A DNA stretch of 64,000 bases from Ochromonas danica (taxonomy: Eukaryota > Sar > Chrysophyceae > Chromulinales > Chromulinaceae), in contig VKHL01000046.1 in the NCBI GenBank assembly GCA_015146655.1, forward strand, positions 1 through 64,000, in the 5' to 3' direction. Below the pieces are notes generated by a model that saw only the letters and a program-made list of their open reading frames with translations, was not told where the DNA came from and made no database searches. Position numbers and translations under genes: made by a program. Shown here piece after piece: positions 11,264 through 14,364 of this stretch (its first letter is position 1; each line of letters starts with the position of its first letter).

Positions 11264-12238
11264 TCAAGACGAAAGTCCGTAGATCTTCAAACGTGCTTCA
11301 AAAATATTCTTGGCTTCCATGTACAGTAGCGAGTCATACGGATCTTCAACGGCAAGATGGCGACGCAAAATCTCGGTGTAATCTTTACGGGATGTTCTGG
11401 CTGCATAGAGCTCAACCGGATAGGGTACCGTTCCTCTTTTCATCATGACATGAAATAACTCAACAGATTTCCCAAAATGCTCTGTTAATCCAATGAAATA
11501 AAATTCTTGCAATCGTTTTATTGCTACTTCCATAGCAGTATGATTGAAAGGTTGGTTCTTAAACAAAGGAGAAGAGCATTCATATCCATTGAGCATTTTG
11601 ACTTGACATCCAATAACATCCGGATGTGAAGCATATAATTGAGCTTTTGCAACTAAGCGTTTTAAGGAAGATTGATGACTATTACTGATATTATTCAATT
11701 GGTGTTGTAAAGCAATGAAATCTTCTGGTGGCATTCCTTCATGATGAACAGAATCAAGAAATGAAGAGATAACACGTCTTTGTGGATCACGAAAAAATCC
11801 GACATATTGACGATTTTGACTTGATTCACTCAATTGGAGAGGAGTATGTGGTCCTCCCACTTGACAGGTGGTCTCTTTACCACGATGAAATCTTGCACAA
11901 CCATAGGCTAATTCTACACCAAATGTGCGATGATTTGGTTCAATCAATTCGTTATCAATCAACATCTCCATAGTAATATCTTGTGTGAGATTTTCAAATT
12001 GTGTCTGACAACAAAGATGTTGTAATGTCAAACAAAAGGAAGATCCTGTCTTTGGAATATGAACCCATCGAAGTTGTTTACAATCAAAATGATCTTCATT
12101 TTGATTGTTATTAATATGATTATTAGCAAGATTATGATTTCCTTGGACAACAGATGTAGGCAAAACACAAGATAAAATAAAGAGAAACATGAAGATCATG
12201 GTAGTAGTGAAGAGGTCATTCCTTCTTGTTCTAGTCAT
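11264..12238 (-). CDS. Golgi-type carbohydrate sulfotransferase, 324 aa
   Basis: The start is the ATG at 12238; the frame continues upstream only through a GTG. A basic N-terminus and one hydrophobic anchor (TTTMIFMFLFILSCVLP) predict a type II Golgi protein. WVHIPKTGSSF (about residues 58-68) is the 5'-phosphosulfate-binding loop that contacts PAPS. QYVGFFRDPQRRVISSF (about residues 145-161) is the 3'-phosphate-binding motif with the expected Arg and Ser. Together they place it in the membrane sulfotransferase group related to Sulfotransfer_2 and galactose-3-O enzymes, which transfer sulfate from PAPS to glycans. Acceptor specificity cannot be told. N-glycosylation sequons are present (ENLTQ, NNISN, FNHTA). 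It is divergently paired with the proteasome-beta-like gene. Confidence 0.88.
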   Translation of the reverse strand: MTRTRRNDLFTTTMIFMFLFILSCVLPTSVVQGNHNLANNHINNNQNEDHFDCKQLRWVHIPKTGSSFCLTLQHLCCQTQFENLTQDITMEMLIDNELIEPNHRTFGVELAYGCARFHRGKETTCQVGGPHTPLQLSESSQNRQYVGFFRDPQRRVISSFLDSVHHEGMPPEDFIALQHQLNNISNSHQSSLKRLVAKAQLYASHPDVIGCQVKMLNGYECSSPLFKNQPFNHTAMEVAIKRLQEFYFIGLTEHFGKSVELFHVMMKRGTVPYPVELYAARTSRKDYTEILRRHLAVEDPYDSLLYMEAKNIFEARLKIYGLSS

Positions 12239-12547
12239 GATGGCTGATATTATGAAACAATAGTCTATCAACAACGACACGATCAGAAGGGAATAATAAT
12301 GTGGATCTGTTGTTGACCAGCCCAGCTAAGCTCTGAACTGCCGCTCATGTAAAGAGAGAAGACCCACCCAGACCTGTTGGTGGTGTTCGCCACCCAGCAG
12401 AGAGCAGAGCACGTCCAAAATTTGCACCAAAACAGGAACAGCCTCTGACACACAAACACCTCTCCTTTTGAGAAACGCGTTACTTCGCCAACCATGGTGG
12501 TGTTAACTTAAGAGGAATATTGTTTCATCTTTTGATGATGATCAAAG
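12239..12547. promoter_or_regulatory. Divergent promoter with AAACGCGTT and GTTAACTTAAG
   Basis: This region is shared by the sulfotransferase and the proteasome-beta-like gene. It contains AAACGCGTT at 12473-12481 and GTTAACTTAAG at 12502-12512, both also found together in two other divergent promoters of this window (14.6 kb and 37.5 kb). ACGCGT is the core of the yeast MCB cell-cycle element; a similar role here is inference. Confidence 0.5.
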
Positions 12548-13348
12548 ATGATGAGACGGTTATTCTTCATTGTACTTTTTCTTATTCATCTTCTACTCTT
12601 CTGTTATGGAGGAACCATTCTTGTAGCTAAGACTTTAGAAGGATTAGTTTTTGCATCAGATAGTTTACATACTATTAATACTAATCCTTTTATTAGTAGT
12701 CAGAAGATTAGACGATTCTATCTACTAACACCTCATATTGTCATTGGTAATATTAATGGTGATTGGCAATTTCATAAACTCTTTGAAGAGATGAAACAAA
12801 CTATACAAGTCTATAAAGAAGAATGTGGAGAAGATATGTCTATTCAAACTATTGCCTATTATTGCCGAAAATTGATAAATCAACATTATCATAAAGCACA
12901 TATTGTGATTGCTGGTTATCAACCCGACCTTCTAGGAAAGGAGAAGGTGGAAGGGTATCATCTGTTTGAAGTGTTACCTCAAGGCAGTCTTCTAGAAGAA
13001 GAAGAATTTGTTGTGGCAGGGTCTGGTGGACAGCATCTGACTTCCTTCTTCCATGACCTATACCATCCTCATCTCCTCTCCTCCCCTGAGAAAAATCGCC
13101 AGATAACAATTAGAGATGGATCAAAGAAAAAATCTTCCTCCAGCTATCCTTTCTCGCAAACAAGAAAAGCGTTTAACCAAGGTTCATCATCACTAGGTGA
13201 TGTGGTAGTAAAGTTAGAGGATGCGTTAGATGCTTGTAGGCGAGCCCTTCGAGCAACTATTCAATACGATCCACGTACAGGAGGAGAACAATGTTCTTTT
13301 TGGATAATGCGCAAGAAGTCAATCACAACAACTTTAGCTGTAGATTGA
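12548..13348 (+). CDS. Signal-peptide-bearing proteasome beta-like Ntn hydrolase, 266 aa
   Basis: Residues 1-22 (MMRRLFFIVLFLIHLLLFCYGG) form a hydrophobic leader ending in Gly-Gly directly before a Thr. The next stretch, TILVAKTLEGLVFASDSLHT, matches the N-terminal strands of active proteasome beta subunits, with Thr23 in the place of catalytic Thr1 and an Asp in the place of Asp17. Later markers also fit: HIVIAGYQPD (the strand before the core sheet), VVAGSGG (the SGS/GSG loop) and DPRTGG (the Asp-x-x-Ser-Gly-Gly loop). The site equivalent to Lys33 falls in SSQKIRRF, where the catalytic Lys may be replaced by Arg. An ER-directed proteasome-fold protein is unusual, because 20S subunits are cytosolic and nuclear. 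It may be a stand-alone lumenal threonine hydrolase. Alternatively the leader could be a short propeptide. Confidence 0.72.
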   Translation: MMRRLFFIVLFLIHLLLFCYGGTILVAKTLEGLVFASDSLHTINTNPFISSQKIRRFYLLTPHIVIGNINGDWQFHKLFEEMKQTIQVYKEECGEDMSIQTIAYYCRKLINQHYHKAHIVIAGYQPDLLGKEKVEGYHLFEVLPQGSLLEEEEFVVAGSGGQHLTSFFHDLYHPHLLSSPEKNRQITIRDGSKKKSSSSYPFSQTRKAFNQGSSSLGDVVVKLEDALDACRRALRATIQYDPRTGGEQCSFWIMRKKSITTTLAVD

Positions 13349-13611: not shown

Positions 13612-14364
13612 TTAGTGGGGCTCTCCTTTTGGTCGACGGAGAGCTGCCCACTGCAGAAGATTCTTCATCTGACGAGAACTTTTGTCAAAAACGACATTCC
13701 TTCTTGATTTTAATTGAACTTGTGCTATGGTCATATCTATTTTTTGATATTTAAAAAGATAAGCCGCAATAACACTAGCACTTCTTCCACGTCCAGACTT
13801 ACAATGCACATAGACACGATGTCCATTTGCAAGATAACGATCCAGAACTTCAGCTCCACGATCAAGTACATCATGCGAAGGAGGTAAAAAGTCTTGTGAA
13901 GAGAGTACAATATGATCAATCCCTAGAGCCTTCCATTCAGAAGGCAGGACAGGGCGACCCATTAAAGTCTCTGTTTCGATTTCGAAAGGTTCAACAACTG
14001 ACAAAATTAATTTCACTCCCAATTTGCTTAATTGTTCATCGTGACGGTCATCTTTTAACGGGATAGCACCAAGTAGCAGATTATCATCTACTACACTAAA
14101 CCATCGGAAAGTTCCCATTTGAGCTTCTATGACATGATCGACCACAAGTCCTTCAAACAACAAATATTTCCAAAATACAATAGCAAAAATGAGAGGCAAC
14201 AATAGAGTATACCAATTATTTTTGACAATGATAAGAGTGATAGCGAAGACACATAATAAAATAAAATGAACAAATCTGCTTCGTAGTGCAGATAGTAAAG
14301 CTTGTGTGAAATACGAATCTTTAACTGATGATGATGATAATAATGTTGATGATGATGTTGTCAT
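13612..14364 (-). CDS. PTPMT1-like dual-specificity phosphatase, 250 aa
   Basis: Two N-terminal hydrophobic segments (about residues 30-72) anchor the protein. The phosphatase domain contains the signature HCKSGRGRSASV (about residues 187-198), with catalytic Cys and Arg in the Cx5R loop, and a general-acid Asp candidate in SSQDFLPPS. HCK(A/S)GRGRS and the preceding layout (FRWFSVVDDNLLLGAIP) are typical of PTPMT1. That mitochondrial enzyme dephosphorylates phosphatidylglycerophosphate in cardiolipin synthesis; the plant and algal versions also make phosphatidylglycerol. The membrane anchors fit a lipid substrate. It is head to head with a light-harvesting gene, notable because phosphatidylglycerol is the only phospholipid of thylakoids, but the link is inferred. 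Confidence 0.82.
   Translation of the reverse strand: MTTSSSTLLSSSSVKDSYFTQALLSALRSRFVHFILLCVFAITLIIVKNNWYTLLLPLIFAIVFWKYLLFEGLVVDHVIEAQMGTFRWFSVVDDNLLLGAIPLKDDRHDEQLSKLGVKLILSVVEPFEIETETLMGRPVLPSEWKALGIDHIVLSSQDFLPPSHDVLDRGAEVLDRYLANGHRVYVHCKSGRGRSASVIAAYLFKYQKIDMTIAQVQLKSRRNVVFDKSSRQMKNLLQWAALRRPKGEPH

Follow-up and report, generated by a model that had tools for sequence, protein, structure and literature searches.

What does a protein of the proteasome family do behind a hydrophobic leader, and is it still a protease? Both questions are raised by a reading frame in the window, by which I mean the whole 64,000-nucleotide stretch of Ochromonas danica contig VKHL01000046.1 that was analysed (Table 1). 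The frame is unbroken and runs for 266 codons from the first ATG that follows a stop, encoding 266 residues. The earlier note had described an intact frame with a hydrophobic leader, a proteasome-type fold, and GSG and DxxTGG loops, and this description was confirmed: the protein matched PF00227 (proteasome, 20S/HslV family) over residues 21-176 with 53.2 bits and an E-value of 3.9e-14 (curated cut-off 22.4), and all 39 distinct sequences retrieved by a PDB sequence search at E ≤ 1 were proteasome subunits. Along the protein, a leader is followed by a beta domain (GSGG at residues 158-161), an additional ~40-residue segment and a final stretch that contains DPRTGG (residues 241-246) and aligned with the canonical C-terminal part. 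A search of its own genome at E ≤ 10 returned only the protein itself, and no relatives were found in viral contigs, phage records or GTDB contigs. An origin from HslV, a member of the same Pfam family, was rejected, as the genome has a separate HslV gene (L029).

Table 1. Positions of features in and around the window gene, and genes of the divergent proteasome set (window coordinates)
Feature	Position	Strand	Basis or remark
Leader-bearing 20S proteasome beta-type subunit, putatively at a beta1-like position	12548..13348	+	Single intact frame, PF00227, PDB matches
Putative ER signal peptide (hydrophobic leader, residues 1-21)	12548..12610	+	Hydropathy 3.1
Gly22, at the Thr1 (nucleophile) column	12611..12613	+	8/8 alignments; PDB and TIGR03634 registers
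Thr23, previously proposed catalytic Thr, at the Thr2 column	12614..12616	+	Alignments, PDB, TIGR03634
Asp38, Asp17 column, kept	12659..12661	+	8/8 alignments
Arg56, Lys33 column, Lys replaced	12713..12715	+	8/8 alignments
GSGG loop, with Ser159 conserved at the Ser129/130 column	13019..13030	+	8/8 alignments
DPRTGG, with Asp241 conserved at the Asp166/167 column and Thr244 occupying the Ser169/170 column	13268..13285	+	Alignment
beta' genes			beta2' L015; beta3' L034 + L023 (two pieces); beta4' L030; beta5' L026; beta6' L019; window gene
alpha' genes			L024 (near-identical copy L025), L028, L032, L033, L035

The structure prediction that had been proposed as a check gave poor models, with a mean pLDDT of 46.5 when the mature part was modelled by single-sequence AlphaFold and of 54.9 for the full-length protein, in which the leader continues into one long helix. 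Nevertheless, the best 50 of 1229 Foldseek rows (E ≤ 10) for the mature model were all proteasome chains, as were 50 of 50 among the matches listed by VIA-align, where rows cover model residues 35-123 only; this points to an Ntn-type fold. Given the low confidence of the models, the register of Thr1 was settled by alignment instead of structure.

The leader, MMRRLFFIVLFLIHLLLFCYGG, directly precedes Thr23 and reaches a best 12-residue hydropathy of 3.1. Signal-peptide cleavage follows the -3,-1 rule, and a possible site lies before Gly22, with Cys19 at -3 and Gly21 at -1. The neighbouring sulfotransferase-like gene (11264-12238, minus strand) is transcribed divergently from the window gene across a gap of 309 bp (12239-12547) and scored 15.9 bits against the Pfam sulfotransferase profile, under the cut-off of 22; its product carries a leader of secretory type and contains PKTGSSF. 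Also in the window, at 13612-14364 (minus strand), hydrophobic stretches are followed by a dual-specificity phosphatase domain (PF00782, 52.8 bits).

The register was tested with four MAFFT methods, each applied with and without the leader, resulting in eight alignments. Active beta subunits begin their mature form with T-T-I or T-T-T and have an Asp at position 17, whereas the window protein reads G22-T23-I24; this run is gap-free to Asp38, and Gly22 is therefore position 1 and Thr23 position 2. The match to the canonical-beta HMM likewise begins at Gly22. Three of the five printed PDB alignments extend to the leader end, and Thr23 is second in all three. Thr1 of the beta1 chain 6qm7_H pairs with Gly22, residue 2 of 6td5_H (the aligned part of which reads as 6qm7_H) pairs with Thr23, and the Gly-Gly-Ser of a beta3 chain pairs with the Gly-Gly-Thr of the window protein. 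In the curated profile TIGR03634, the beta2 and beta5' genes have the Gly ahead of Thr1 at position 1; the match of the window protein begins two places later, at position 3, with Thr23 (codon 12614).

Compared with the catalytic (T1) beta subunits, the window protein lacked Thr1 and Lys33 and retained Asp17, Ser129 and Asp166 in all eight alignments. The earlier note had taken the Thr after Gly-Gly as putatively catalytic and the protein as a threonine hydrolase that may activate itself, and neither proposal was supported, with Gly22 in place of Thr1, Thr23 at Thr2 and Arg56 in place of Lys33 each time. The Gly-Gly-Thr does not look like a processing site ahead of a nucleophile and resembles the GG start of non-catalytic subunits. 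Judged from these columns, the window subunit is probably non-catalytic and has apparently lost its own active-site threonine.

A PF00227 profile search of the 31-Mb genome returned 34 exon-level matches at E ≤ 0.001, which were typed against human yardstick sequences. All 14 canonical subunit types were found, plus HslV, and alongside them a second set of at least 11 divergent genes, five of alpha and six of beta type, with leader-like N-terminal stretches. The PF00227 cut-off was passed by all ten further divergent sequences scanned, the window gene and L023 being outside that scan. Signal-peptide calls on the second-set subunits used hydropathy only, which was at least 2.34 in 10 of 11 genes and weakest in beta6' (1.41). 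Canonical N-termini stayed at or below 1.43 in ten of the eleven scored (all types but beta1, beta4 and beta5), the exception being beta6 with 2.28, inside mature strands. The secretory-type leader and the separate canonical set uphold the earlier view that this is not a normal cytosolic 20S subunit; the lumenal or extracellular protease acting on its own, which that view had come with, gives way to a leader-bearing second set of at least 11 genes.

Within this set, beta2' and beta5' retain Thr1 and the other six catalytic columns examined, including D17, K33 and Ser-Asp-Ser, and in beta2' the Thr1 (residue 55) lines up with residue 1 in solved structures of mature beta2. Searches with PF00227 at E ≤ 10 and with two archaeal-type families gave no new gene for a beta7' or two alpha' subunits; these may have been lost, have diverged too far, lie outside the assembly or be shared. 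By their best PDB rows, L024 is alpha2-like, L032 alpha6-like and L028 mixed; the alpha tree had long branches and no resolution. The near-identical copies L024 and L025 lie ~4 kb apart on contig C30, where L025 runs into an N stretch. The beta3' gene is split across an exact inverted duplication on contig C43 (L036/L037; 100% identity over 2141 and 105 bp), which reflects either a recent rearrangement or an error of assembly. An orphan alpha-type N-terminal signature, TTFSPSGRVFQ (L038, C33:134551-134583, minus strand), lies ~3 kb from an alpha' gene, and no alpha gene was seen around it. The possibility that the second set stems from a mixed assembly was considered; an FCP gene sits on the window contig, the one contig checked. 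The best PDB match of this FCP gene was chain 6ly5_T (FCPI-12, 187 bits), presumably from a diatom.

Assigning the window gene to a beta position was less straightforward. In a first beta tree its row joined HslV by a long branch, and the tree was rebuilt without HslV. The other divergent genes joined their own canonical types (beta2' and beta5' 99/99, beta3' 97/93, beta6' 100/96, beta4' 94/86), while the window row, on a long branch of 2.44, joined the beta1/beta2/beta5 group at 88/87. AU tests rejected none of its placements at beta1 (p 0.25), beta2 (0.27), beta5 (0.21), beta6 (0.084) or beta7 (0.054), and among the type-HMM scores beta1 was best with 15.7 versus 13.0 and 11.8. The beta2 and beta5 places are taken by beta2' and beta5', so the window gene is left with beta1. 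On these comparisons, the beta1 position is the likeliest, mainly by elimination, and the assignment is a weak one.

The protein shares with canonical 20S beta1 (PSMB6/Pre3) the best type score, the family and the D17, S129 and D166 columns, but differs in having Gly at Thr1, Arg at Lys33, Thr at Ser169, a secretory leader and the extra segment before the last conserved stretch. Its Gly at the Thr1 column and GG start are those of the non-catalytic beta6 and beta3, for which the divergent set already has separate genes. The gene might instead occupy the beta7 or another non-catalytic position of the same second proteasome, in which case no beta1 active site would have been lost. This is unlikely, although a divergent member is missing for beta7 too, neither the beta7 nor the beta6 placement was rejected, and the catalytic-column pattern equals that of beta6 except for the Arg at 33, which beta7 has too. 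Against it stand the type score, the grouping with beta1/2/5 in the tree, and the TGG, which suits beta1 and not beta7. The top eight PDB rows also count against it, with three named beta1 (6qm7_H, 5fmg_H and 9y0l_H, the last as type-6) alongside a beta3 chain, a pair of archaeal beta subunits and two chains of unstated type.

In the canonical beta7 gene (L013, contig C18, locus bases 1383-1452), an upstream ATG lies in frame at a distance of 23 codons and opens the reading MLCLVFLALLLQ, with a hydropathy of 2.71. Among the 14 canonical loci a leader-like upstream start was seen here alone, other upstream starts (five loci) reaching 1.77 at most. Rich in pyrimidines and with CAG at its end, this stretch may be a splice acceptor instead of a leader. 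It offers one hint that canonical beta7 is shared with the second proteasome via an alternative start; if that start is used, one beta7 gene could serve both particles.

As to where the second proteasome works, PMC5070193 and PMC5756292 describe signal-peptide 20S subunits of plastid-bearing heterokonts in the periplastidal compartment (PPC), without a 19S cap there, and one of these papers reports that two such proteins were localised to the PPC. The secretory-type leader (hydropathy 3.1) proposed for the window protein stands; the statement that proteasome beta subunits are not secreted does not agree with these accounts. I consider it most likely, with a probability of about two in three, that the window gene encodes a beta subunit, most likely at the beta1 position, of a leader-bearing second 20S proteasome, most likely of the PPC. 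The resemblance to the heterokont PPC proteasome, as described in the two papers, includes nuclear genes, signal peptides (here by hydropathy), 20S subunits, a separate canonical set, no second Rpt set among the Rpt-family matches found, and leader-bearing SELMA-like proteins alongside. In contrast to it, several subunits here are without a transit-like stretch, and the beta1-like member appears catalytically dead.

The candidate partners were two leader-bearing SELMA-like derlins (L046 and L047, out of four derlin matches), one Cdc48 (L043/L048, one of two CDC48_N matches) and one Ufd1 (L058); for L043 and L047, the link from leader to domain was inferred from neighbouring open frames. The leader-bearing Cdc48 ends in DDLYN, which fits an HbYX docking motif, and the other Cdc48 ends in EDLYS. 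PMC5070193 suggests that a Cdc48 which can deliver substrate to the 20S core might be of importance in the PPC. Five matches to the Rpt family were found in the genome, fewer than one full set (with a minority of N-termini resolved), and no second set of cap ATPases was seen among them. A single Ump1 gene was found in the genome, and no second one was seen. In three ORFs, [LI]RGGA lies close to where the transit-like part ends: L043 (~residue 45), L046 (~80) and L047 (~188). The motif is reminiscent of the LRGG with which ubiquitin ends.

It is rather improbable that the particle is instead a 20S proteasome of the secretory pathway or of the lumen of the ER or chloroplast ER, with plain signal peptides, assembling and working on the lumenal side without ubiquitin or ATP. 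Such a site would account for at least 5 of the 11 subunits (window gene, beta3', beta4', L024 and L028), in which the leader runs straight into the mature fold with nothing that resembles a transit peptide in between, unlike the long leaders of the derlin and Cdc48 candidates in the same genome. It would likewise suit a scan for [LI]RGGA that matched 3 of 599 ORFs (duplicate loci counted), all three SELMA-like, and no proteasome ORF. However, the Ufd1 leader is also short and without RGGA, and a KDEL-like end is absent from the second-set sequences examined (the end of L025 being masked). PPC signals are also described as loosely defined, with positive net charge unnecessary, in PMC12136025, and the heterokont subunits with signal peptides were placed in the PPC in PMC5756292 and PMC5070193, one of which reports the localisation of two of them there. 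The specific case of a complete 20S particle on the lumenal side (ER or chloroplast ER), with a dead beta1, live beta2- and beta5-type sites and possibly a borrowed canonical beta7, is doubtful to a greater degree. Very improbable is a lone secreted hydrolase that activates itself with Thr23 as nucleophile: the leader does end in Gly-Gly before a Thr and the D17, S129 and D166 columns are kept, but every alignment places Thr23 one residue past Thr1, Lys33 is Arg, and ten more leader-bearing subunit genes make an obvious complex.

Under the preferred reading of a PPC proteasome, the leader would carry the window protein into the ER lumen, from where, going by the published heterokont work, it would most likely go on to the PPC of the complex plastid and join a 19S-less 20S core. 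With Gly at Thr1 and Arg at Lys33, its role in the ring would be structural, and neither self-processing nor caspase-like cleavage would be expected of it. Peptide cleavage would come from the partners beta2' and beta5', which keep their catalytic columns, and the leader-bearing Cdc48 may feed unfolded substrates by way of its HbYX-like end.

By analogy, the second proteasome would be of a kind already reported for the PPC of related algae, and the loss at the beta1-like site and the missing transit stretch may be new details. To my knowledge, no protease of the proteasome kind has been described in the ER lumen, and a particle located there would put one in such a place. Should the second particle prove to be the PPC proteasome, the genes described here provide a list of at least 11 subunits, with two predicted catalytic types instead of three and a candidate feeder Cdc48 with an HbYX motif, and would make it testable how ubiquitin-driven SELMA import stays separate from degradation.
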